Shown one piece after another: positions 154 through 19,895 of a stretch of DNA of 56,914 bases. Each line of letters opens with the position of its first letter. The stretch's first letter is position 1. The position numbers were made by a program, and so were the translations under genes. The notes below the pieces were generated by a model, which was not told the origin of the DNA, made no database searches, and worked only from the letters and a program-made list of their open reading frames with translations. The DNA comes from Ruminiclostridium sp. (lineage in GTDB: Bacteria; Bacillota; Clostridia; Oscillospirales; Ruminococcaceae): the NCBI GenBank assembly GCA_017635095.1, contig JAGBMA010000178.1:1-56914 (forward strand). Direction: 5' to 3'.

Positions 154-182
154 TTGACATTTACTGCCAGACATGATATAAT
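154..182 (+). promoter_or_regulatory. Sigma-A promoter of the cobalamin uptake operon
   Basis: TTGACA (154-159) and TATAAT (177-182) are separated by exactly 17 bp, with a TGA just before the -10 that makes it an extended -10. Predicted transcription start is near 189, immediately at the riboswitch. Confidence 0.85.
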
Positions 183-184
183 TG

Positions 185-281
185 TTCCCGTAAAAAGCGG
201 ACATTCTGAGAGAAGTGCGGTGAAAATCCGCCGCAGCAGTCACTGCCGTCAAAGCCGGATCGCTCGGTGCCCGCCCGGGAA
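185..281 (+). promoter_or_regulatory. Cobalamin riboswitch (compact type)
   Basis: The region contains the B12-box-like core GGTGAAAATCC (near 219-229), followed by a CACTGC element and a GCCGGAT...GCCCGCC segment that resembles the 3' part of cobalamin aptamers. TTCCCG at 185-190 can pair with CGGGAA at 276-281 to close the domain. At about 100 nt it is shorter than the classical 200-nt B12 element, which suggests a compact (class II-like) version. It precedes an ECF operon whose S component looks like CbrT, which fits cobalamin control. The aptamer class is inferred by eye; a covariance-model search would settle it. Confidence 0.75.
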
Positions 282-316
282 AACGCATTTTCGGACAACG
301 GAAAATGTGCCGATGT

Positions 317-342
317 GCTTTCCTTAAAAGGAAAGCTTTTTT
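317..342 (+). terminator. Riboswitch expression-platform terminator
   Basis: GCTTTCC (317-323), a TTAAAA loop and GGAAAGC (330-336) form a perfect 7-bp stem directly followed by six T residues. It lies between the aptamer and the first gene, as expected for a transcriptional OFF switch when cobalamin is bound. Another hairpin at about 285-310 (GCATTTTC with GAAAATGTGC) could take part in the alternative fold. Confidence 0.8.
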
Positions 343-369
343 GTTGCAAAAAGAAAGGAAGATAAAACC

Positions 370-1260
370 ATGAAAAAGATCGTTTCTGCTGCGGCTGTAC
401 TCGCAGCAATGAGTATGCTCAGCGTATCCGCTTTCGCAGATGTTTATGTTACTATCTCAGATGACAGCGGAAAGCTTGTTGTAGCCCTTGAGCCCACCGA
501 GCTCAGCGACGCTGACGGCGACGGAAAACTCACCGTAAACGACGCACTTTATAACGCACATGAAGCTCTGTTTGACGGCGGAGCAGCAGCAGGCTACGGC
601 TCCGAATCCGGGGACTACGGACTTATGCTCACAAAGCTCTGGGGAGTTGAAAACGGCGGCAGCTACGGCTACTATGTGAACAACGCCTCCGCAATGAGCC
701 TTGCCGATGAGATAAACGACGGCGACACCGTAAACGCTTTTGTTTTTACTGACACAGCCGCTTTTTCCGATACATACTGCTACTTCGACTCAAACCGGAT
801 CGACTGCTCCGACTCAGCTCCGGACTCTTCAGTAACTACAGAACTTACGCTTACTGCAGCAACTTTCGACGAGAACTGGGCACCGATCAGCGTGCCCGTT
901 GCCGGTGCCACTATCACCATAAACGGCGAAAAGACCGACTTCGTAACAGATGAAAACGGCTGGGTAAGCGTTGACCTCCCCAAGGAGGACGGACAATACA
1001 CAGTAAGCGCAGTCTCCGACACACAGACTCTCGTTCCCCCCGTGTGCATCGTGACCGTTTCCTATGCGGAAGATCTGACTGTTCCCGAGGGTACACCGAA
1101 CGACAATGCACTCGACACCGCCCCGTCGGCAGGAAATGTTGACGCAGCAACAGACAGCTCAAAGGGCTCTCCTGACACAGGTATCGCCGATGTCGCTGCA
1201 GTTGCCGGTATTGCGGTAATAGCTGCAGGCGCGTTCGTCCTTTCCAGGAACAGAAAGTAA
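370..1260 (+). CDS. Secreted, cell-surface protein with transcobalamin-like (DUF4430-type) domain
   Basis: This 296-residue protein has a signal peptide ending about residue 23. Residues 26-130 resemble the DUF4430/transcobalamin C-terminal fold, with a short TAT-like beta pattern and a YGYYVNN segment followed by a DGDTV turn. A perfect EF-hand/dockerin-style calcium loop, DADGDGKLTVND, sits at residues 47-58. Residues 155-235 look like an Ig-type carboxypeptidase-regulatory domain. The C-terminus carries SPDTG (267-271), a hydrophobic helix and SRNRK, a non-canonical sortase-like anchor. The start follows a clear AAAGGAAG ribosome binding site. As the first gene behind a cobalamin riboswitch and upstream of an ECF transporter, it probably captures cobalamin or a related corrinoid at the surface. 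That role is inferred from domain type and context. Confidence 0.75.
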   Translation: MKKIVSAAAVLAAMSMLSVSAFADVYVTISDDSGKLVVALEPTELSDADGDGKLTVNDALYNAHEALFDGGAAAGYGSESGDYGLMLTKLWGVENGGSYGYYVNNASAMSLADEINDGDTVNAFVFTDTAAFSDTYCYFDSNRIDCSDSAPDSSVTTELTLTAATFDENWAPISVPVAGATITINGEKTDFVTDENGWVSVDLPKEDGQYTVSAVSDTQTLVPPVCIVTVSYAEDLTVPEGTPNDNALDTAPSAGNVDAATDSSKGSPDTGIADVAAVAGIAVIAAGAFVLSRNRK

Positions 1261-2897
1261 TGAAAAAACGCATAATCTCACTGATCCTTGCAATAGTAAC
1301 AGCCGCGTCCGCTTTGTCGTGCGCGGCTTTTGCCGGTTCAGACGAAATTTCTGAGGCAGAAGAAGCCATAAGCGGCATAATCGCATATGAACTGCAAGCC
1401 AGCGGCGCCGCAGATATTCAGGATTGGATAGACGCAAGCCTTACAGAAAACGCCGGGAAAAGCTCGGAGTGGTTTGCTATAGCTTTGGCGCAGGACGACA
1501 CAGAAAATGCCGATCTCACCGGCTACAGGAATGCCCTTGAAAAATATATTGCAGAGACCGATGTAAGATCGGCGACCTCGCGTATGAAAAACGCGCTTGC
1601 GCTGCTTGCAGTCTCCGGAAGCAGGCAGCTTGCAGATGAAGCCGCCGAAAGCTCTGTTGGAGAACAGGGTGTAATGAGCCTTATCTACGGGCTGCATCTT
1701 CTGAACAACGGCTGCAGCTGCACAAAGTACACGGTTTCATCGCTCACCGACGAACTGCTTTCCATGCAGTTCGATGACGGCGGTTGGGCAATTATGGGTG
1801 AAAACGGGGACATCGACGTTACGGCTATGGCAGTCCAGGCTCTTGCACCGCAGTATGATACCAGTGATCCTGTCCGGTCGTCGGTGGACAAGGCTCTCGG
1901 GTTTCTGTCCGCAAAACAGCAGGACGACGGAGGTTATGTGAGCTTCGGAACGCCCAATCCGGAAAGTGCGGCACAGGTACTTATAGCAGTCTCCGCCGTG
2001 GGACTCAATGTGACCGATCCCCGCTTCATCAAGAACGGCAGCAGTCTCATCGACGGCATTCTCAAATACCGTCTTGACGACGGAAGCTTCTGTCATTCCG
2101 AGGGCGGAGATACAAATGATACTGCCACAGTTCAGGCTCTTCTGTCACTCGAAGCATACGTTCTTATGCAGCGTTCGGGAAAACGGCTTTATGATATGCC
2201 GCGCGAGGAAGTTCCCATTACCTCTGAACCCGAACAGACAACAGCAGCCGTCTCGCCCTCTGCCGTACAACCTGTTACCATAGCTGCATCAGATGAACAG
2301 CTCCCGCAAGCACAGACGTCCGGAAGTTACAAACCTGCCGCATACTGCATAACAGCGGCCGCCGCTATTATTGCGTGCATAATACTGTTCATGCTGAAAA
2401 AGCGTCGTGTCTCCAATTTTATTGCCGTAGTTATAATTGCAGGTCTTGCATCTGCGTTCATATTCTTTACCGATTTCCGCAGCAGCGAAGATTATTACAG
2501 CTCTTCATCTGTTCACAAAGAAAACGCGATAGGTACAGTAACGATGACAGTGCGCTGTGATACACTTATCGGGAAAAGCAGCTCGGAGTATGTTCCGGAC
2601 AACGGGATCATACTCGATACGACCTCGTTCGAGATAGCCGAAGGAGACACGGTTTATGACATACTCACTGAAGCTGCAAAAAAATACAACATTCAGCTCC
2701 AGGTCAACGGGAACTATATTGCCGGTATAGCATATCTTTATGAATACGACTACGGCGATCTTTCCGGCTGGATCTACCATGTGAACGGCGATTCACCGTT
2801 TGTGATGTGCTCGGATTACAAGCTTTCCGACGGCGATGTCATCGAATGGCTCTACACCTGTGAGCTCGGCAACGACCTTACGACAGATCAACAATAA
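1260..2897 (+). CDS. Intrinsic-factor/transcobalamin-like membrane protein, putative cobalamin capture
   Basis: The protein has 545 residues with a signal sequence at 1-26. Residues about 60-310 form alpha-helical repeats with recurring DDGG(W/Y) motifs near 170, 220 and 272, typical of prenyltransferase/squalene-cyclase alpha/alpha toroids. A Pro/Thr-rich linker follows, then two transmembrane helices (about 359-380 and 386-405) joined by KKRR, and finally a DUF4430/transcobalamin-like domain (about 424-540) with the GWIYHVNG motif. In animal transcobalamin and intrinsic factor an alpha6/alpha6 barrel and a C-terminal beta domain of this type clamp cobalamin between them. Here both would lie outside, tethered by a membrane hairpin. 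It overlaps the previous stop (TAATG), so the genes are translationally coupled. The ligand is inferred from the riboswitch and transporter context. Confidence 0.75.
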   Translation: MKKRIISLILAIVTAASALSCAAFAGSDEISEAEEAISGIIAYELQASGAADIQDWIDASLTENAGKSSEWFAIALAQDDTENADLTGYRNALEKYIAETDVRSATSRMKNALALLAVSGSRQLADEAAESSVGEQGVMSLIYGLHLLNNGCSCTKYTVSSLTDELLSMQFDDGGWAIMGENGDIDVTAMAVQALAPQYDTSDPVRSSVDKALGFLSAKQQDDGGYVSFGTPNPESAAQVLIAVSAVGLNVTDPRFIKNGSSLIDGILKYRLDDGSFCHSEGGDTNDTATVQALLSLEAYVLMQRSGKRLYDMPREEVPITSEPEQTTAAVSPSAVQPVTIAASDEQLPQAQTSGSYKPAAYCITAAAAIIACIILFMLKKRRVSNFIAVVIIAGLASAFIFFTDFRSSEDYYSSSSVHKENAIGTVTMTVRCDTLIGKSSSEYVPDNGIILDTTSFEIAEGDTVYDILTEAAKKYNIQLQVNGNYIAGIAYLYEYDYGDLSGWIYHVNGDSPFVMCSDYKLSDGDVIEWLYTCELGNDLTTDQQ

Positions 2898-2910
2898 GTG
2901 TGGTGTTTTT

Positions 2911-3789
2911 ATGAGAGGGTTCAGGGAGCTTGAACCGGTCGTTATAACGATATACTATGTCTGCGTCATCGGAACAGCAATGTTCATAATGCACCCGGTT
3001 ATTATCATACTGTCGCTGCTGGGAGCTGTTGCAATGTTCCTGACGTTTGACAGGAAGCGTAAAGCGGGGCTTCATGTTTCGTTTTTTCTGCTGTTCATGA
3101 TACTCGCGGTCATCAATCCGATATGGTATCACAACGGAGTAACCGTGCTGTTTGTGGTGAACGACAGCCCCATAACCCTTGAAGCGCTGCTATACGGCAT
3201 TTTCGCCGCCGCCATGATAATAGCCGTACTTTACCGTTTCCGCACGTTCACTATGATAATGACTGCGGACAAGCTTATGCACGTTTTCGGGAAACTGTCG
3301 CCGAAGGTATCGCTCATACTTACCATGGCGCTTCGCTACATACCTATGATGCAGCGCCAGACCGTGAAAGTCCGCAGTACCCAGAAAGCACTCGGGATAT
3401 ACAAGGAAGACAATATCGCAGACACGCTCAAAGGCGAAGCCCGGATCTTCTCGATAATGGCAACATGGTCTCTTGAAAACGGGATCATCACCGCCGACAG
3501 CATGGAGGCGCGAGGTTATGGAACACACAGGAGGACTGCGTTTTCGCTCTTTCGATTCCGTGCATCGGACGCGCTGTTCCTTGCGCTGTGCATTATACCG
3601 ACTGCGATAGTTGCAGTATCCGCGGCACTCGGAGAAACAGATTTCGGCTTCTACCCCGCTATGTCGGAAATATCCTGCAGTCCTCTTGCGCTTGCATCAT
3701 ACATATCATACGGCATATTATCGTTTCTGCCCGCTGTACTCGAATGGAAGGAGGGACTGCGTTGGAAATACTTGATATCAAGGGTCTGA
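2911..3789 (+). CDS. ECF transporter T component (CbiQ/CbrV-like)
   Basis: A 292-residue integral membrane protein with about six hydrophobic segments. It carries the coupling-helix signature of ECF T components (A-R-G type) in the segment ENGIITADSMEARGYG near residues 193-208. T components connect the substrate-binding S protein to the cytoplasmic ATPases. The ATG at 2911 is preferred over an in-frame upstream ATG that lies inside the preceding gene. It lies 13 nt after the preceding stop, and its 3' end overlaps the ATPase start. It corresponds to CbrV in lactobacilli if the substrate is cobalamin. Confidence 0.88.
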   Translation: MRGFRELEPVVITIYYVCVIGTAMFIMHPVIIILSLLGAVAMFLTFDRKRKAGLHVSFFLLFMILAVINPIWYHNGVTVLFVVNDSPITLEALLYGIFAAAMIIAVLYRFRTFTMIMTADKLMHVFGKLSPKVSLILTMALRYIPMMQRQTVKVRSTQKALGIYKEDNIADTLKGEARIFSIMATWSLENGIITADSMEARGYGTHRRTAFSLFRFRASDALFLALCIIPTAIVAVSAALGETDFGFYPAMSEISCSPLALASYISYGILSFLPAVLEWKEGLRWKYLISRV

Positions 3790-5384
3790 GCTTCACATAC
3801 CCCCTCGCAGCCGCCCCGGCTCTCCGTAATATCTCGTTCACGGTAAACGAGGGAGATTTCATAGCGGTCTGCGGAGCGACCGGAAGCGGGAAATCAACTC
3901 TGCTGCGAATGATCAAGCCCGCACTTGCGCCCCTCGGTGAAGTTACAGGGGATATAAAGTTCAAAGGCAGTCCCGTGAGCGAATGTGAGACATCTCAGAT
4001 CGGTTTTGTGATGCAGGATCCCGACCACCAGATCGTTACGGACAAGGTATGGCACGAACTTGCATTCGGGCTCGAAAACCTTGGCGTGCCACAGCCTGCA
4101 ATGACGAGACGCACGGCAGAAATGGCAAGCTATTTCGGCATCGGTGATAAGTTTGACCGGAATATCTCCGAGCTTTCCGGCGGTCAGAAACAGCTCATAA
4201 ATCTTGCCGCCGTCATGGTCACGGAGCCGGAAATGCTCATTCTCGACGAACCCACCGCACAGCTTGACCCGATAACCGCTTCCGATCTGATAAACACCGT
4301 AAAGAAGCTCAACCGCGATCTTGCCCTCACTGTCATTATTGCCGAGCACAGGCTCGAAGACGTAATCCCGGTATGCGACAAGCTTCTCGTGATAGAAAAC
4401 GGGGCTGTGCTCGCTTTCGGAAAGCCCGGGGACGTGCTGCGCCGTCTCTACGGTCACAGCGATATAATGTGCGGTATGCCTGCCGCAGCCCGCATCTCCT
4501 CAATGCTGGGAGAGAAGGAATGCGCGCTCTCCGTAAGAGAAGGCAGAGAACTTGTGCGAAAATACGGGAATAAAAAAACGCTCCCCGGGACGAATACAGA
4601 GGGAGCCTGCAAAAAGAACGCCGTTCTCGTGTTCAAAGACGTTTTCTTCCGCTACGAGCGCAGTTCACCGGATATTCTGAGAGGAACGGGCTTTGATGTT
4701 TACGAGAACGAGATATTCTGCATACTCGGCGGGAACGGCTCAGGAAAAACCACTGCGCTTTCCTGCGCTTCCGGCATTCTTCGTCCATACTCCGGCACGA
4801 TCACCGTATTCGGAAGAAAAATAAAGGACTACAGGAACCAGTCGCTGTACAAAGAATGTCTTGCATTGCTGCCTCAGGACATAAGCACGGTATTTCTGCG
4901 CAATTCCGTCCGCGAGGAACTTGAAGACGCGGGTGGGGATAACGGGGCTCTTCCCTTCGACCTTACCCCTCATCTCGACAAGCACCCCTACGACCTGTCC
5001 GGCGGCGAAAAACAGCTTGTGGCGCTCGCAAAGGTACTTGCCCTGAAGCCGAAACTGCTGCTTCTCGACGAGCCGACAAAAGGACTTGACGCGGCATCAA
5101 AGCAGCGAATGATCGTGCTTCTGCGAAAGCTCACCGAAAACGGCATGACAATCGTAACGGTAACTCACGACGTTGAATTTGCTGCCGAGTGCGCGGACCG
5201 GTGCGCACTTTTCTTCCGCGGCGAAGTTGTGTCTGCCGCAGCTCCGGAGGAGTTCTTCTCGGAGAACAGCTTCTATACAACTGCCGCAAGCAGGATCACC
5301 CGCGGGCATTTCATTAACGCCGTAACAGCCGGAAAAGCCGCGGAACTTTGCAGACTCAACGGAAGAAAGGCGGAAGAAACATGA
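3762..5384 (+). CDS. ECF transporter double ATPase (fused A and A' subunits)
   Basis: This 540-residue protein contains two ABC ATPase domains in tandem. The first has Walker A GATGSGKST (about residue 38), signature LSGGQKQ (about 137) and Walker B LILDEP (about 160). The second has Walker A GGNGSGKTT (about 322), signature LSGGEKQ (about 410) and Walker B LLLDEP (about 433). ECF transporters normally use two ATPases, and here they are one chain, as with CbrU-type proteins. The TTG at 3762 has a GGAGGG ribosome binding site 6 nt upstream; an ATG at 3744 lies before that site and is less likely. The gene overlaps the T component by 28 nt and the S component through an ATGA junction. Confidence 0.9.
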   Translation: MEILDIKGLSFTYPLAAAPALRNISFTVNEGDFIAVCGATGSGKSTLLRMIKPALAPLGEVTGDIKFKGSPVSECETSQIGFVMQDPDHQIVTDKVWHELAFGLENLGVPQPAMTRRTAEMASYFGIGDKFDRNISELSGGQKQLINLAAVMVTEPEMLILDEPTAQLDPITASDLINTVKKLNRDLALTVIIAEHRLEDVIPVCDKLLVIENGAVLAFGKPGDVLRRLYGHSDIMCGMPAAARISSMLGEKECALSVREGRELVRKYGNKKTLPGTNTEGACKKNAVLVFKDVFFRYERSSPDILRGTGFDVYENEIFCILGGNGSGKTTALSCASGILRPYSGTITVFGRKIKDYRNQSLYKECLALLPQDISTVFLRNSVREELEDAGGDNGALPFDLTPHLDKHPYDLSGGEKQLVALAKVLALKPKLLLLDEPTKGLDAASKQRMIVLLRKLTENGMTIVTVTHDVEFAAECADRCALFFRGEVVSAAAPEEFFSENSFYTTAASRITRGHFINAVTAGKAAELCRLNGRKAEET

Positions 5385-6067
5385 TAGCGATAAAAAGCGC
5401 AGGCGCACGCAGCTTCATAAGGATCGCCTTCCCTTTCGTTATAATACCTCTTTTCACCCTGATCGGGACAGTCGTTTTCGACAGCGGCAAGCATCTTGTC
5501 ATATCCCTCGGAGTAACAGCAATGACGCTTCTCGTGTTCGTTTCGGGATACGAGAAAAAAAAGACAGGCACAAGGCGTATGGTGATAGCATCGGTGATGA
5601 TCGCGCTGTGCGTTCTCGGCAGATTTATCCCCATATTCAAGCCGATAACCGCGCTCACAATAATCACCGGAATGTATCTCGGCGGCGAGACCGGATTTCT
5701 TGTGGGGGCGCTCTCGGCCGTCATCTCGAACATCTTTGCAGGTCAGGGACCGTGGACGGCATTCCAGATGCTTGCATGGGGACTAATAGGGCTTATCGCC
5801 GGTACAGCGTCAGTGCCGCTTAAAAGACACCGGTGGCTTTTGCTGACATATGGCGCGGTGACAGGTATCGCCTACTCGTTCATCATGGATATATGGACAA
5901 CTCTCTGGTACAGCGGCGGATTTGACGCTTCCGTATATCTCTCCGCGCTTGTGACAGCTATACCGTACACTGTGAGTTACGCCGTCTCGAACTTTATCTT
6001 TCTGCTTTTTCTTGCAAAACCTTTCGGCGAGAAACTTGAGAGACTGCACATAAAATACGGGATATAA
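5381..6067 (+). CDS. cbrT: ECF transporter S component, probably cobalamin-specific (CbrT-like)
   Basis: A 228-residue protein with about six transmembrane segments. The central block (about residues 88-150) has the pattern of the CbrT/YpdP-like ECF-S group: a GRF(I/V)P turn, GMYLGGETGFLVG, and an NIFAGQGPWTAFQM stretch. S components bind the vitamin and dock on the shared T/A module. Cobalamin is assigned because the operon begins with a cobalamin riboswitch and includes transcobalamin-like proteins; the sequence of the S subunit alone would not prove it. The start overlaps the ATPase stop (ATGA). Confidence 0.8.
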   Translation: MIAIKSAGARSFIRIAFPFVIIPLFTLIGTVVFDSGKHLVISLGVTAMTLLVFVSGYEKKKTGTRRMVIASVMIALCVLGRFIPIFKPITALTIITGMYLGGETGFLVGALSAVISNIFAGQGPWTAFQMLAWGLIGLIAGTASVPLKRHRWLLLTYGAVTGIAYSFIMDIWTTLWYSGGFDASVYLSALVTAIPYTVSYAVSNFIFLLFLAKPFGEKLERLHIKYGI

Positions 6068-6094
6068 CGGTGAAGTGCCGCTATATCCCTTTTT
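6059..6094 (+). terminator. Terminator of the cobalamin operon
   Basis: GGGATATA (6059-6066) pairs with TATATCCC (6082-6089), with an inner CGG/CCG pair, followed by TTTTT. The stem includes the stop codon of the S-component gene. Confidence 0.75.
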
Positions 6095-6144
6095 CCATAT
6101 TTTTTCGTTTTTTCTCCCGTTGAACGCTTTAGGCAATGACCCGC

Positions 6145-6582
6145 TTATGCGCTTTCGTTCCCGAGTATCTTGTAAAGCAGTTTATACAGCGTTCCTGCCT
6201 CCTCGGGAGAGAGCGCGACACAGCACGCTATCTTCGGAGGGATCTCCGCAGCCTGCTCCTTGAGGGCTTCACCTTCATCGGTTATACCTACTATGAGAAC
6301 TCGCTCGTCCTCGGAGGAACGTGTGCGGGTGACGAGCCCCTTCGACTCCAGGCTTTTGAGCACAGGAGTCAGCGTGCCGGAATCAAGGTAAAGCTTCTCG
6401 CCGAGCTCCTTTACACTGACGTGCTTTTTTTCCCACATGACCATCATCACTATGTACTGGGTATAAGTGAGTCCGATCTCGTCGAGATGCGGATGATATT
6501 TCTTCACGATCTCGCGGGAACAGGCGTAAAGCGGAAAGCAAAGCTGGTTCTCCAGTTTCAGCATATCATAATTTTTTTCCAT
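6145..6582 (-). CDS. ohrR: OhrR-type peroxide-sensing MarR regulator
   Basis: A 145-residue winged-helix protein. The N-terminus (MEKNYDMLKLENQLCFPLY) is nearly that of Bacillus OhrR, including the redox-sensing cysteine at position 15. The DNA-reading region contains LYLDSGTLTPVLK and the wing DER motif that are hallmarks of the OhrR branch. Family members repress organic hydroperoxide resistance genes and release DNA when the cysteine is oxidised. It is the second gene of a two-gene operon behind a promoter with OhrR-like operator half-sites, so it probably represses itself and its TSCPD partner. No ohr peroxidase gene is adjacent, which is unusual. Confidence 0.9.
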   Translation of the reverse strand: MEKNYDMLKLENQLCFPLYACSREIVKKYHPHLDEIGLTYTQYIVMMVMWEKKHVSVKELGEKLYLDSGTLTPVLKSLESKGLVTRTRSSEDERVLIVGITDEGEALKEQAAEIPPKIACCVALSPEEAGTLYKLLYKILGNESA

Positions 6583-6592
6583 AGTCCCCTCC

Positions 6593-6853
6593 TTACGCAG
6601 ATCTGCTCTCGTCGTAAGCCTGTCTTACTGCTTTTGCAAGCTGGTCGGCGCATGAGGTGGGACGTCCGTTGCAGGTGTTTCCGCCGAGCTTTTCCTCAAT
6701 GTCGCTTACCGTCATTCCGTCAACGAGCTTGGATATAGCTTTGAGATTGCCGTTGCAGCCGCCCTTGAATGACACTCCGCGGACAACATCGCCGTCAAGA
6801 GTGAAATTTATCTCTGTTGAACATACCATTCTTGTTTTGTATTTGTACTCCAT
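6593..6853 (-). CDS. TSCPD-domain protein
   Basis: An 86-residue protein with four conserved cysteines in the layout of the TIGR03905/TSCPD family: C11, then GGCNGN, then NTCNGRPTSCADQLA. TSCPD domains also occur at the end of class II ribonucleotide reductases, and the short stand-alone proteins are thought to bind metal, but their reaction is not known. It lies 10 nt upstream of ohrR and has its own good promoter, suggesting a link to redox or peroxide stress. Confidence 0.85.
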   Translation of the reverse strand: MEYKYKTRMVCSTEINFTLDGDVVRGVSFKGGCNGNLKAISKLVDGMTVSDIEEKLGGNTCNGRPTSCADQLAKAVRQAYDESRSA

Positions 6854-6897
6854 ATCATTCTCTCCTTACTGCATTTTTATACCGTCTGCTATTGCCT

Positions 6898-6952
6898 CAA
6901 TTAAATTGCTTTCAATTAAATTTATTATACACTATATGCGGGAAAATGTCAA
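6898..6952 (-). promoter_or_regulatory. Promoter and putative OhrR operator of the TSCPD-ohrR operon
   Basis: On the minus strand TTGACA (6947-6952) and TATAAT (6924-6929) are 17 bp apart. Just downstream of the -10 are CAATTAAATTG (6898-6908) and the similar CAATTAAATTT (6913-6923). These resemble the AT-rich inverted repeats bound by OhrR proteins and would block the start site. Confidence 0.75.
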
Positions 6953-6978
6953 GGGGTAAAATTGCAGTTTGTCTTTTG

Positions 6979-7007
6979 TTGACATTTACTTAATTTCGCG
7001 GTATAAT
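6979..7007 (+). promoter_or_regulatory. Sigma-A promoter upstream of the recD2 operon
   Basis: TTGACA (6979-6984), 17-bp spacer, TATAAT (7002-7007). It is divergent from the ohrR promoter, only 26 bp away, so an OhrR-bound complex could affect both. Confidence 0.8.
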
Positions 7008-7096
7008 AAAATGATATGAAATATCAGCCTGTATGCCCGGAGATGAGCTTTGACCGCCGGCGGAAATAATGCATATAATGACACAGGGGTGTTCTT

Positions 7097-7258
7097 ATGC
7101 AGGGTGTTATGTTCTTTCTGACGGTCTTCTGCGGTATCTTCGGCGCTTACATACTTGCGGGAATGATCTTTAACGCGATCATCTCGCTTATCGGAAAAGG
7201 AAGATCGTCAGATGGCGGAAAACACGGAAGAAATAATAACAATAACCGGCACGGCTGA
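7097..7258 (+). CDS. Small membrane protein, 53 residues, overlapping recD2
   Basis: An open frame from ATG 7097 encodes one hydrophobic helix (about residues 4-32) followed by a hydrophilic tail rich in Gly, Asn and Arg. It is the first frame after the promoter at 6979-7007 and overlaps the start of recD2 by 47 nt. The ribosome binding site is weak (GGGGTG 9 nt upstream). I know no family. It may be a genuine small protein or a translated leader. Confidence 0.4.
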   Translation: MQGVMFFLTVFCGIFGAYILAGMIFNAIISLIGKGRSSDGGKHGRNNNNNRHG

Positions 7259-9431
7259 GGAAATAGTATATAAAAACCCGGACAACGGCTATATCGTGAT
7301 AACAATGGATATCGACGGCGCTCCGGAAACTGTCGTCGGCACTCTCGGGGACATTGTGGAAGGCGAGTCTCTTATACTGCGCGGGAATTATATTGCAAGC
7401 GCAAAGTACGGCAGACAGTTCAAGGCTGTTACCTGTGAACGCAAGCTCCCAACCACAGCCGAGGAGATCCGCCGCTATCTCGGGAGCGGTATAATAAAAG
7501 GCATAGGTCCCGCTATGGCAAAAAAGATAGTCCACGCTTTCGGTGAGGAATCCCTCGATATCATTGAGAATGACCCGAAGCGCCTTTCAACGCTGAACGG
7601 GATATCCGTTGACAAAGCACTCTACATAGGCACCGAATTCCGTAAGCTCTGCGGGATCCGCACGATAATAGAATTTCTCCAGAGATACGAGATAAGTCCC
7701 CTCACCGCTTCACTTGTATGGAAAGCATACGAGGGTGAGAGCGTACTCAACGTAAGAAGTGACCCGTATCTTCTCTGCAATGACGAATTCGGAGTTGACT
7801 TTTCCCAGGCGGACAGAATAGCAAGCGACCTCGGGCTTTCGCCTTTCAGCATGAGCAGGATAAAAGCGGGTATAACCTATGTTCTGCGGGAAAATGCAGC
7901 CGCCGGTCATACCTGTGTACCGCGTGCGAGCCTCACGGAAGTAGTGTGTCCGCTTATACGCGTAGGAGAAGACGACTTCGACAAAGCGCTCATCGAAGGA
8001 ACAGACGAGCACATCTTCGTATCATATGAGACCTCACGCCGGGAATACATCTATCTTGCCGAGTACTATAACGCGGAAGCGTACATAAGCAAAAAGATCG
8101 CGACTATGCTGAAACTGTCCGCGCCTCTCGCCAAAGACTACTCCGATGATATCGCGGGTATAGAATGGGAGGAGAACATTCAGTACGAAGAGCTTCAGAA
8201 AGCAGCGATAAATGCGGCACTCGGAAACAACATCTTCATTCTTACCGGCGGTCCCGGCACAGGTAAGACCACCACGCTCAACGCGGTCATCAGGCTGTGT
8301 GAGATGAAGAAGAAACGGCTTATGCTCGCGGCGCCTACGGGAAGAGCAGCAAAAAGAATGTCCGATCTTACAGGAAGACCCGCAAAAACAATACACAGAC
8401 TGCTTGAAGTGGATTTCTCCAACAAATCCGGCAAGCCGAAATTCAAGCATCATGACAAAAACCCGCTTAATGCCGACGTTATCATAATAGACGAGATGTC
8501 AATGGTCGATACGCTGCTGTTTGAGGCGCTGCTGAGGGCAGTGAAGCTCGAAAGCAAGCTGATAATGGTCGGAGACTCAAACCAGCTCCCGAGCGTCGGT
8601 GCCGGAAATGTGCTCCGAGACCTCATCACCTCCAGAATGATACCAACGGTGGAACTGAAAGAGATATTCCGCCAGGCTGCCGAGAGCCTTATAATCACCA
8701 ACGCCCATAAAATAGTACATGGGGAGATGCCGGAGCTCGACAACAGGAAGAAAGATTTCTTCTTTATGCCCACCGCAAGCGACGAGGAGACCGCTCAGCT
8801 CGTCATAGGGCTTGCAAAGACGCGGCTGCCTAAAACATACGAATACTCACCTATCGACGATATCCAGGTGCTCTCGCCGACAAAAATGGGGACGGCAGGT
8901 ACAAAAGAGCTCAACCGCTCACTGCAGCTCGCCCTCAATCCACCCTCCCGCATGAAGAAAGAGATCCGCTTCTTCGACAGCGTGTTCCGCACCGGTGACA
9001 AGGTAATGCAGATAAAGAACGACTATGATGTCGTCTGGAAGCGCGGCTCGGACAGCGGCACGGGCATATTCAACGGCGATATCGGTATCATATTCGAGGT
9101 CGATGTGAGCAATTCCCTGCTGCATATAGATTTCGACGGGCGTAAGGCGGTATATACGAGCGAAATGTTCAGCAAGCTTGAACACGCTTACGCCGTAACG
9201 ATACACAAAAGCCAGGGCAGCGAGTACAAGGCTGTGATAATGCCGCTCACGCTCTATTCCAACAACCTGCTTTACCGGAACCTGCTCTATACGGGCGTTA
9301 CCCGCGCGAAGGAGATACTGATAATCGTCGGGACGCGTGAAGCTGTCGTGAGAATGGTGGAAAACAACAAGAAAACGAACCGTTTTTCCTGCATAAAGGA
9401 TATGCTTGAAGCGGAATACGGGGAAAACTGA
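7212..9431 (+). CDS. recD2: RecD2-type ATP-dependent DNA helicase
   Basis: A 739-residue SF1B helicase. The N-terminal OB-like region (residues about 10-80) is followed by tandem helix-hairpin-helix motifs (IIKGIGPAMAKKIVHAFG near 94-111). The helicase core has Walker A GGPGTGKTTT (about 346), Walker B IIIDEMSM (about 423), a GDSNQLPSVG motif III (about 453) and VTIHKSQGSEY near 660. RecD2 acts without RecBC in Firmicutes, unwinding 5' to 3' during repair and fork rescue. Its length and domain order are normal for the family. It is the first large gene of a run of closely packed plus-strand genes. Confidence 0.96.
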   Translation: MAENTEEIITITGTAEEIVYKNPDNGYIVITMDIDGAPETVVGTLGDIVEGESLILRGNYIASAKYGRQFKAVTCERKLPTTAEEIRRYLGSGIIKGIGPAMAKKIVHAFGEESLDIIENDPKRLSTLNGISVDKALYIGTEFRKLCGIRTIIEFLQRYEISPLTASLVWKAYEGESVLNVRSDPYLLCNDEFGVDFSQADRIASDLGLSPFSMSRIKAGITYVLRENAAAGHTCVPRASLTEVVCPLIRVGEDDFDKALIEGTDEHIFVSYETSRREYIYLAEYYNAEAYISKKIATMLKLSAPLAKDYSDDIAGIEWEENIQYEELQKAAINAALGNNIFILTGGPGTGKTTTLNAVIRLCEMKKKRLMLAAPTGRAAKRMSDLTGRPAKTIHRLLEVDFSNKSGKPKFKHHDKNPLNADVIIIDEMSMVDTLLFEALLRAVKLESKLIMVGDSNQLPSVGAGNVLRDLITSRMIPTVELKEIFRQAAESLIITNAHKIVHGEMPELDNRKKDFFFMPTASDEETAQLVIGLAKTRLPKTYEYSPIDDIQVLSPTKMGTAGTKELNRSLQLALNPPSRMKKEIRFFDSVFRTGDKVMQIKNDYDVVWKRGSDSGTGIFNGDIGIIFEVDVSNSLLHIDFDGRKAVYTSEMFSKLEHAYAVTIHKSQGSEYKAVIMPLTLYSNNLLYRNLLYTGVTRAKEILIIVGTREAVVRMVENNKKTNRFSCIKDMLEAEYGEN

Positions 9432-9443
9432 AACGAGGATAAA

Positions 9444-9926
9444 ATGAACTGTACGATAAGAGAGATGAGAAAAGATGAATATCCGTTCCTCGCCGATTTT
9501 CTTTACGAGGCGATATTCATTCCCGAGGGAGTCGCCCCCCCGCCCCGCGATATAATACTGCAGGACGAGCTTCAGGTATATATCCGCGATTTCGGAGAAA
9601 AGCCGGACGATATCTGTTTTGCGGCGGAATGCGGCGGCAGGGTCGTCGGTGCAGTCTGGGTGCGGATAATGGACGACTACGGTCATATCGACGACGAGAC
9701 CCCATCATTCGCCATATCACTGTACAAGGAGTACCGGGGTCAGGGCACAGGAACGGAACTCATGCGTACTATGACAGCCGAGCTTAAAAAGCGCGGGTAT
9801 AAGCGTGCCTCCCTTGCGGTCCAGAAAGCCAATTACGCGGTAAAGATGTACAAGGCTGTGGGATTTGAAATAACGGGAGAGAACGAGGAAGAATACATTA
9901 TGACAATAAAGCTGAATGAGGAATGA
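9444..9926 (+). CDS. GNAT-family N-acetyltransferase
   Basis: A 160-residue acetyltransferase of the GNAT fold. The acetyl-CoA binding loop appears as YRGQGTGTELM near residues 95-105, and the end shows the NYAVKMYKAVGF pattern of the RimI-like group. It has its own ribosome binding site (GAGGA) 12 nt after recD2 and overlaps the next gene through ATGA. The substrate cannot be told from sequence. Confidence 0.88.
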   Translation: MNCTIREMRKDEYPFLADFLYEAIFIPEGVAPPPRDIILQDELQVYIRDFGEKPDDICFAAECGGRVVGAVWVRIMDDYGHIDDETPSFAISLYKEYRGQGTGTELMRTMTAELKKRGYKRASLAVQKANYAVKMYKAVGFEITGENEEEYIMTIKLNEE

Positions 9927-10411
9927 CTATGGAAATAATCGAGTATTTTTCTTCCGACCGGAAAGATCACTGGCTCGCGCGGCTCGGAAAATGCAGGTGG
10001 AGTGCCGGCAAGCTGCTGTACTCACTGCTGAAAAACGGCACTTCCGAGCAGTTTCTCGGAGAACACCCGAGAGTGCTCATGCTCATCGACGGCGACAAGC
10101 TCGTTTCTTTCTGCACACTCGCACAGAAAGATGATATTCCCGATTACAGGCTCACTCCGTGGATAGGATTCGTCTATACATTCCCGGAATACCGTGGTCA
10201 CCGCTTTGTGGGAAAGCTTATCACAAAGGCAGAACGAACTGCTTACGCCGAAGGGTTCAGAAATATATACATCTCCACCGGGCATACCGGGCTATATGAG
10301 AAATACGGCTACACATTCTATGAAAAGAAAAAGGACATAAACGGTCATAATTCAAGGATCTACATAAAAAGGCTGAAGCAGAATGACGATCAACTTACAG
10401 AAAACCGCTGA
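9923..10411 (+). CDS. GNAT-family N-acetyltransferase
   Basis: A 162-residue GNAT protein with the acetyl-CoA loop YRGHRFVGKLI near residues 91-101 and a GLYEKYGY C-terminal motif. It belongs to a different GNAT branch from the preceding gene, so the pair is not a recent duplication. It starts in an ATGA overlap and its end overlaps the next gene by 29 nt, implying translational coupling. Confidence 0.85.
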   Translation: MTMEIIEYFSSDRKDHWLARLGKCRWSAGKLLYSLLKNGTSEQFLGEHPRVLMLIDGDKLVSFCTLAQKDDIPDYRLTPWIGFVYTFPEYRGHRFVGKLITKAERTAYAEGFRNIYISTGHTGLYEKYGYTFYEKKKDINGHNSRIYIKRLKQNDDQLTENR

Positions 10412-10751
10412 ATATTACAAAACAGCAGAACCATGCGACTGTGCATACTGCAGGAATTACTGCAGCAAGATAAAGGCGCAGAGACCGGATATCGCGGAGC
10501 ATCTCGCCGGAATGGGCGTTGATATAGAAAAGCCGTTCGAGCTGTTTTTCGTTGAGGACGATGTTCATAAAACAGTCTTATACTGCTGCTGTATGTACGT
10601 CGTTTACGGGGAATGTGAAAAAGATCTTGACTACGATCTCGGAGGGCTTCGATTCACCAACAATACTGACTGCCACCCGAGCACAGATATAACGGAAGAA
10701 CATTTTATCCTCGACTTCGGGGAGATAACTTTGGATATGGAGGAAATATGA
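10383..10751 (+). CDS. Conserved cysteine-rich protein of unknown function
   Basis: A 122-residue soluble protein beginning with a YYKTAEPCDCAYCRNYC block (residues 11-27), which has a C-x-C-x2-C-x3-C pattern, and a later CCC run near 68-70. It ends in an HPST...EEHFILDF motif. I recall similar short proteins in Clostridia, all uncharacterised. The cysteines suggest metal or Fe-S binding. The start overlaps the acetyltransferase gene by 29 nt and the stop almost touches the dipeptidase gene. Confidence 0.75.
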   Translation: MTINLQKTAEYYKTAEPCDCAYCRNYCSKIKAQRPDIAEHLAGMGVDIEKPFELFFVEDDVHKTVLYCCCMYVVYGECEKDLDYDLGGLRFTNNTDCHPSTDITEEHFILDFGEITLDMEEI

Positions 10752-10752
10752 G

Positions 10753-12153
10753 ATGCACGAGAAAATAAGGGAGTACATCTATAACAACAAGGAACGTATG
10801 CTTTCTATGATATGCGACCTTGTTTCAGTCCACAGCGTCAAAGGCGAACCGGCGGAGGGAGCGCCTTTCGGGGTCGGTCCCCGCGCCGCACTCGACAAGA
10901 TGATAGGTATATGCAGAGACGAGGGATTTGATACAAGGCTCTGTTATGACGTGGTCGGAACAGCCGACCTCATGCCGCGGTACAACAAGGATATGCCCGC
11001 ACTCGGTATCCTGTGCCATCTCGATGTTGTGCCGGCTGAGGGACAGGAAGGCTGGAACACGGATCCATTCAAGATGACAGAAAAGGACGGTACGATCTGC
11101 GGACGCGGAGTTATTGATGACAAGGGACCTGTTTGCGCCGCGTTCATGGCAATGAAATGCATAAAGGATCTCGGGATACCGCTGAAAAAGGGCGTAAGGC
11201 TCATTTTCGGGACTGATGAGGAGAACGGCTCGGAAGATCTCGATATTTATCTTGCAAACGAAAAGCTGCCGGAAAATGTATTCACGCCTGATGCCGCGTT
11301 CCCGATAATAAACATCGAAAAGGGCATGATGCGCTCAAACTTCTCGGGAAGCTACAGAGGCGGCAATATCGTATGCTTTCACGGCGGAAACATTCCAAAC
11401 GCTGTCCCGGACAGCTCATACTGCATTATATCCGGTATAGATACGGACGAAGTGCGGAAAGCGATCGAGCTTTACAGCGGATGCAAAGCCGATTTCTTCA
11501 TAACGGAAGCGGACGGAAAAATACGGATAGACTGCAAAGGCAGATCGGCTCACGCGTCAACTCCCGAAACCGGCATAAATGCGGTAACCGCGCTTATTGC
11601 CCTTTTGTGCAGGCTTCCCCTTGAGGGCGGAAAGCAGAAGGAAATTCTACGCGGGCTGAACGACGCGTTTCCGTACGGTGAGACTGACGGATTCGACGCG
11701 GGTCTGCGCCGCTCGGACGAAAGATCCGGTGCTCTTACACTTGTGTTCAGCATTTTTCATATGGAGAACGGTAAATGCAGCGGCACGATAGATGTAAGAT
11801 TTCCTGCCTGCATGACCCTCGCCGAGGTTGAAGCGGCAGAGAACGCGGCTCTTAAAAAAGCGGGCTGCAAATTAGACGGGTACATGGGCGACGAAGCCCA
11901 TATAACGGACGAAAACAGTGAATTTGTACAGAAGCTCATGAGTGTTTATGAACGCTGTGAAGGCGAAAAAGGAAAGTGCATCGCTATAGGCGGCGGCACA
12001 TATGTACACAACGTACCGGGAGGCGTAGCGTTCGGTGTCGAGCGCGGAAACACCGACTATAAGATGCACGGGGCAAACGAATGGATAAGCGTTGACGAGC
12101 TGCTCAGAGACGCTGTGATCTTTACGGAAGCGATAATTGAAATATGCGGATAA
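10753..12153 (+). CDS. pepV: M20-family dipeptidase (PepV-like)
   Basis: A 466-residue zinc peptidase. Metal and catalytic motifs are visible: CHLDVVP (His about 90), DDKGP (Asp about 121), the catalytic DEENGSED pair (about 155-156), and a late HGANEWISVDEL block. PepV enzymes cleave dipeptides, including beta-Ala and D-amino acid forms, in the cytoplasm. Its length fits PepV (about 465). It overlaps the following membrane gene by 10 nt. The exact peptide substrate is not determinable. Confidence 0.9.
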   Translation: MHEKIREYIYNNKERMLSMICDLVSVHSVKGEPAEGAPFGVGPRAALDKMIGICRDEGFDTRLCYDVVGTADLMPRYNKDMPALGILCHLDVVPAEGQEGWNTDPFKMTEKDGTICGRGVIDDKGPVCAAFMAMKCIKDLGIPLKKGVRLIFGTDEENGSEDLDIYLANEKLPENVFTPDAAFPIINIEKGMMRSNFSGSYRGGNIVCFHGGNIPNAVPDSSYCIISGIDTDEVRKAIELYSGCKADFFITEADGKIRIDCKGRSAHASTPETGINAVTALIALLCRLPLEGGKQKEILRGLNDAFPYGETDGFDAGLRRSDERSGALTLVFSIFHMENGKCSGTIDVRFPACMTLAEVEAAENAALKKAGCKLDGYMGDEAHITDENSEFVQKLMSVYERCEGEKGKCIAIGGGTYVHNVPGGVAFGVERGNTDYKMHGANEWISVDELLRDAVIFTEAIIEICG

Positions 12154-19780: not shown

Positions 19781-19895
19781 CTCCCTCATCTTCCACCGCG
19801 CATATTTGCGCGATGCGGGAATTGGCACCATTTGCATTTCTGCCGGTTGCCGCGGCTTCACAGGACCCGGTTCCTCCGCCGCTCTTGATAAGGAC
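19781..19895 (-). promoter_or_regulatory. SAM-I (S-box) riboswitch
   Basis: Read on the minus strand, the S-box consensus is clear: CTTATCAAGAGCGGCGGAGG, GAAGCCGCGGCAACC, GGTGCCAATTCC and finally GGAAGATGAGG. High SAM favours the downstream terminator and lowers metK expression. Confidence 0.95.

Follow-up and report, generated by a model that had tools for sequence, protein, structure and literature searches.

Positions 154 to 6067 of a 56,914-nucleotide stretch of DNA from Ruminiclostridium sp. (assembly GCA_017635095.1, contig JAGBMA010000178.1; the whole stretch is called the window here) read as a single transcription unit, comprising a leader, two open reading frames for surface proteins (ORF1 and ORF2) and the genes for an energy-coupling factor (ECF) transporter (EcfT, a fused EcfA-A' and EcfS). 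We conclude that this operon is probably a B12-repressed uptake system for cobalamin or related corrinoids, which supports in outline the interpretation offered by an earlier sequence-only reading of the same DNA. The five genes overlap or nearly touch, all on the + strand, and their coordinates agree with the gene order and overlaps described in that reading. A sigma-A type promoter, read directly from the letters (154..182), consists of TTGACA at 154-159, a 17-base spacer and TATAAT at 177-182; two related loci, L032 and L036, show these hexamers at the same 17-base spacing in their leaders.

EcfT (2911..3789) is a CbiQ-type transmembrane component (PF02361, 31.5 bits, cut-off 25), EcfA-A' (3762..5384, TTG start) carries two ATPase domains in one chain, with two stretches each for TIGR04520 (333.9 bits, cut-off 315) and ABC_tran, and EcfS (5381..6067) is a CbrT-like substrate (S) component. 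The parts that define an ECF transporter, namely T, two ATPase domains and S, are therefore encoded together. When EcfS was compared with solved structures, the best match, and the nearest structure, was 6fnp (E 3.8e-11 from the single sequence). A profile of 26 S components reached 6fnp at 6e-20, whereas the next chain, 4hzu, which we take to be an S component of another kind, followed at 5.9e-4 and the folate S component 5d3m at 4.2. According to the portions of PMC5997447 available, 6fnp is the B12-specific ECF-CbrT; the earlier proposal of a full ECF transporter with a CbrT-like S was thus borne out, its S being closest to CbrT among solved S components. Cobalt transport was considered and rejected, with CbiM and CbiN unmatched in all five operon proteins (Pfam, NCBIfam) and S nearest CbrT.

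The leader carries a probable aptamer of the AdoCbl-II class of cobalamin riboswitches (RF01689) at 198..273, found in a permissive covariance search of 600 bases (32.4 bits, E 9.6e-6). A gathering-level Rfam scan of the window did not report a cobalamin riboswitch, because 32.4 bits is below the gathering score of 36.5; its sole report was a SAM (S-box) riboswitch elsewhere (19783-19894, - strand, 85.2 bits, E 8.7e-19). Among leaders of related loci, that of L033 exceeds the RF01689 gathering score (38.7), those of L032 and L036 score 33.0 and 31.7, and that of L037 matches RF00174 at 83.2. The letters of the P1 stem vary among the leaders of the window, L032 and L036 with pairing mostly kept in cmscan alignments, a statement that carries no covariation count; MAFFT leader alignments misplaced P1 of L032 and L033. 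On the 3' side of the aptamer lie a conserved hairpin (284..309) with similar letters in relatives, whose loop may contact the aptamer, and an intrinsic terminator (317..342) that has an 8-base-pair stem and six U and can be seen in the L032 and L036 leaders as well. The fold of 274-345, from which both elements were drawn, had a z of -2.79, and 2 of 200 shuffles were equal or better. The riboswitch core and the terminator, first recognized by eye, are supported by the covariance and folding analyses.

The association of S with surface proteins is conserved and far above chance. We surveyed 293 genomes of the class, taken as Clostridia; the DUF4430 and RF00174 counts below are the first 150 matches listed for each, and co-location counts are lower bounds. 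DUF4430, the family matched by ORF2 (see below), occurred in at least 121 genomes and a relative of EcfS in 104. A listed DUF4430 gene lay within 6 kb and on the same strand for at least 77 of 101 strong S matches (at least 74 of 94 genomes, host included), compared with about 0.4 expected for 2.4 Mb genomes and listed DUF4430 genes only. The 101 exclude 14 weak S matches (E > 1e-8), at least three of which are also near a listed DUF4430. Of 92 pairs among the matches listed, 85 had DUF4430 on the upstream side of S. As a control, in the 74 genomes with an S-DUF4430 pair, to which the riboswitch and BioY searches were applied, a listed DUF4430 was never found within 6 kb of a BioY gene (0 of 72), and a listed RF00174 once (1 of 72). 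A chance neighbourhood was therefore discarded, and the co-occurrence with cbrT-type S that the sequence-only reading had asked to be surveyed proved to be widespread.

RF00174 was present in at least 70 of the 74 genomes, and a listed DUF4430 on the same strand and within 15 kb was downstream of 42 and upstream of four of the 150 listed elements; within 20 kb, S was downstream of 26 and upstream of seven. RF01689 reached its gathering level in one of the 74 genomes, where RF00174 is the usual class, and RF01689 alone is a poor guide to related operons. For closer inspection, 40 places were chosen (39 near S matches from the set of 101, one near a DUF4430 match), and L145 and L146 were retrieved on account of their PF01122 matches. 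The 46 retrieved loci contained S in 44, DUF4430 in 41, an alpha/alpha toroid in 35 and an ORF1-type domain in 10, with S, DUF4430 and toroid together in 33; a cobalamin-class element reached gathering level in 5 of 12 loci scanned with Rfam. The pairing recurs in fused, split and reordered layouts.

Several loci depart from the arrangement in the window. S-layer homology (SLH) domains replace the sorting-type tail or the membrane hairpin in L108, L116, L117, L134, L145 and L146. A second EcfS relative adjoins the first in L104 and L118, and these paralogous S components may serve different corrinoids. L102, L103 and L107 contain EcfS and EcfA (and EcfT in L102 and L103), with DUF4430, toroid and ORF1-type domain not found in the stretch, which in L107 starts at a contig end; surface partners may not accompany every such transporter.

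ORF2 (1260..2897; 545 amino acids) consists of a signal peptide, an alpha/alpha toroid (about residues 26-306; 1335..2177), a two-helix membrane hairpin and a DUF4430 domain (PF14478, residues 462-533; 2643..2858; 58.8 bits, curated cut-off 23.8), the latter being the only DUF4430 match in the host genome. Hydropathy and predicted helices place the hairpin at 2331..2468 (helices at about residues 358-378 and 384-403), and two hydrophobic stretches occupy the matching position in L032, L033, L036, L037, L101 and L115. The C-terminal elements of the predicted model are E398-407, E425-435, H440-450, E455-458, E461-465, E478-483 and E502-508. We rejected ORF2 as a terpene cyclase on grounds of fold and gene context: the toroid is common to many families, and the neighbours, DUF4430 and riboswitch point elsewhere.

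ORF1 (370..1260; 296 amino acids) contains a signal peptide, a transcobalamin-type beta-grasp domain (residues 24-133; 439..768), an Ig/CarboxypepD-like domain and a sorting-type tail. In the predicted structure, the beta-grasp domain has the same fold as the beta domain of transcobalamin, its nearest structures being 3u7z and transcobalamin. At the sequence level Pfam gave no transcobalamin-type match for it, and its identity to human transcobalamin, intrinsic factor and haptocorrin is 17-21%. DUF4430 did not match the ORF1-type domain in any of 11 members, with a moderate profile-profile link, and when the profile of this domain was compared with the PDB, transcobalamin was not among the best 60 of 138 matches, in which EF-hand proteins rank first, with E values from 0.044 upwards. 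Two exported proteins of transcobalamin/DUF4430 type had been claimed from the sequence; DUF4430 was found in ORF2, whereas the type of ORF1 follows from its predicted fold, not from Pfam, and the membrane hairpin of ORF2 makes it more than a simple exported protein. The EF-hand and sorting signal noted at the same time are both present as motifs: an EF-hand-like calcium loop, DADGDGKLTVND, lies within the beta domain (511..546; sequence and alignment of ORF1-type members), and the C-terminus (1168..1257) comprises SPDTG, a hydrophobic stretch (residues 270-294) and a basic end. Their family matches were weak, with Pfam EF-hand found in two to three of 11 ORF1-type members (best E 0.038) and the tail under the cut-offs of NCBIfam sorting models (13.2 vs 23.5; 11.8 vs 15.9). 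The tail recurs at four other places in the host genome, with open frames carrying it on host contigs C98, C232 and C173, two of them near each other on C232; it is perhaps a lineage-specific wall-anchoring signal.

A relative links ORF2 to the animal carriers. L145, one of the places matched by PF01122 (the animal cobalamin-binding alpha domain), encodes a 1419-residue protein that combines toroid, ORF1-type and DUF4430 domains; genes for toroid, DUF4430, EcfT and EcfA-EcfS follow immediately downstream. Residues 676-925 of this protein were matched by a toroid profile seeded with ORF2 and grown on 45 other loci (3.8e-41), and residues 705-887 by PF01122 (51.4 bits, cut-off 25); therefore, homology between ORF2 and the animal domain can be traced by way of this relative. 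Compared directly with the PDB, part of the L145 protein reached transcobalamin at E 0.15 only, and the DUF4430 sequence profile did not find transcobalamin there. From the PF01122 link and the predicted fold of ORF1, the domains of ORF1 and ORF2 look homologous to those of transcobalamin, a relation stronger than the mere analogue of intrinsic factor that had been suggested.

The genome of the host contains two RF00174 elements in addition to the operon's own element. Downstream of the first come a frame resembling a binding protein (a name given from its translation; no family match), a BtuC-like permease, an ATPase, a CbiK-like protein, CbiD and CbiF, with CobS and two GATase_3 proteins farther along the same contig. 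CbiD, CbiF, CbiL and CobS exceed their cut-offs in the host, as do three B12-binding (PF02310) matches, whereas CbiK and BtuC are under theirs; GATase_3 is over its cut-off but unspecific, matching 14 of 14 control genomes. Given these synthesis genes and importer candidates, the host seems capable of corrinoid synthesis as well as corrinoid import. The second RF00174 element, on host contig C2 (L144, about 3702-11416), precedes ABC transporter genes of oligopeptide/nickel type, read by eye, with CbiL beyond, and this is a possible second importer of corrinoids or cobalt. On host contig C79 (L143, 5269-6642), a CbiK-like cobaltochelatase domain (residues 77-332, 256 bits, cut-off 400) is preceded, by eye, by an apparent lipoprotein-type signal and a Thr/Ala-rich linker, and the protein is possibly exported.

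Some of these results weigh against a role in B12 uptake. A host with genes for much of B12 synthesis has less need of a scavenger, and the BtuC-like permease behind another cobalamin riboswitch may import corrinoids already. Likewise, no listed DUF4430 gene lies on the same strand within 6 kb of 24 of the 101 S matches, some of which are near contig ends, and the window aptamer is under the RF01689 gathering level. PF01122 had no match in the toroid of ORF2 and matched two of 30 aligned toroids (best E 0.0071); searched in 40 of the 74 genomes with an S-DUF4430 pair, it was over cut-off in one, at two places. Transcobalamin was not among the best 50 structural matches listed for ORF2, a list filled by toroid enzymes. 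Finally, the best broad-family match of EcfS is to Pfam's riboflavin-named S family (38.5 bits), and it scored 28.8 with a folate-family NCBIfam model whose cut-off is 60.

It is possible, if unlikely, that the operon imports a different corrinoid, such as cobinamide or another precursor, that is then completed by the late enzymes of the host. CobS, CbiD, CbiF and CbiL would be in keeping with this, the two long GATase_3 proteins may be CbiA/CbiP, and ECF-CbrT carries cobinamide besides cobalamin (PMC5997447, available portions); however, as CbrT carries both, this may be no separate case. We consider it improbable that the ligand of the surface proteins is something else (cobalt, another tetrapyrrole or a polysaccharide), with the riboswitch reporting co-regulation only. 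EcfT belongs to a family named cobalt transport protein by Pfam, the toroid fold is common to terpene cyclases and sugar enzymes, and the title of 3u7z names a putative metal binding protein, but S is nearest CbrT, the ORF1 domain is nearest both 3u7z and transcobalamin, and PF01122 is over cut-off in the operon of a relative. Least credible of all is an association without a shared task, in which the surface proteins would take no part in uptake and would be adhesins or wall proteins repressed by B12, because, despite the SLH wall-anchoring and Ig-like domains of relatives, the pairing is kept in at least 74 of 94 genomes with S, across fused, split and reordered layouts, with DUF4430 upstream of S in 85 of 92 listed pairs.

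For corrinoid uptake, we propose the following sequence of events. When adenosylcobalamin is scarce, the class II riboswitch would let transcription through the terminator, the direction of control being that of the family, and ORF1 and ORF2 would then be made and exported. The toroid and beta-grasp of ORF2 would represent the two halves of transcobalamin, both predicted to be outside and linked by the membrane hairpin, and would probably clasp one corrinoid between them beside the membrane. ORF1, probably anchored to the wall and provided with a calcium-type loop, would probably catch the ligand farther out or serve as a second lid. The ligand would be handed to the CbrT-like S, and the ECF module would drive import with ATP. 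To our knowledge, ECF transporters do not generally rely on external binding proteins. In this lineage a hairpin separates the toroid from the beta domain, and in many relatives each of the two has a gene of its own. We offer, as a tentative extension, that a membrane-tethered transcobalamin acts as a docking receptor for ECF, its domains closing over the corrinoid and opening at S; that ORF1 is an exchangeable beta lid relaying across the wall; and that these operons are extant relatives of the bacterial genes that gave rise to the animal carriers.

The main idea is not new, because Burroughs et al. (2007; PMC1796856) had predicted B12 scavenging by such proteins. The available portions of that paper propose scavenging of B12 or its precursors for transcobalamin-like SLBB surface proteins of Gram-positive bacteria, and a transfer of the animal B12 carriers from such bacteria. 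We found no experimental test of this prediction in the literature searched, a search with most subscription journals and all bioRxiv preprints outside it. What is added here is the cobalamin riboswitch, the CbrT-type S, counts in 293 genomes with a control and a relative that passes PF01122, together with the ORF1 fold, the hairpin fusion and a host with B12 synthesis genes. A specialist familiar with the 2007 paper will find little surprise; the value lies in making two questions testable. The pairing, in at least 74 of the 293 genomes of the class, offers one concrete, testable answer to how Gram-positive gut bacteria capture B12, and the proposed origin of the animal carriers can now be tested on genes that adjoin a CbrT-type transporter and in many cases follow a cobalamin riboswitch.

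The systems of 2007 resemble the present operon in their exported transcobalamin beta-grasp proteins, to which an alpha/alpha toroid is often added, in their CbiO-like and CbiQ-like partners within predicted operons, and in a second paralogous surface protein within the operon. In contrast, an S component, an interdomain membrane hairpin and the word riboswitch were not met in the available portions of PMC1796856, where the hosts are usually without key enzymes of B12 synthesis, several of which are encoded by the present host. Human transcobalamin, intrinsic factor and haptocorrin are soluble animal carriers, whereas the proteins described here would be held at the wall or membrane, adjoining an ECF importer. 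A chain of 96 residues from Ruminococcus gnavus (RUMGNA_00854) is the protein solved in 3u7z. The available portions of PMC9963975 annotate an "additional lipoprotein component of putative cobalamin ECF transporter" in Lacticaseibacillus rhamnosus, a likeness by name alone. BtuG and BtuH of gut Bacteroides are also B12-capturing surface proteins, but Gram-negative (PMC6143338, PMC8941943), and BtuG is a beta-propeller that works with BtuB (PMC6977713; available portions of all three). The ECF-CbrT of Lactobacillus delbrueckii (6fnp), for which ATP-driven uptake of cobalamin and cobinamide was demonstrated, has its S family and ECF module in common with the operon; the portions of PMC5997447 available contain no mention of a surface partner, whereas the present operon unites T, a fused A-A' and S with surface proteins.

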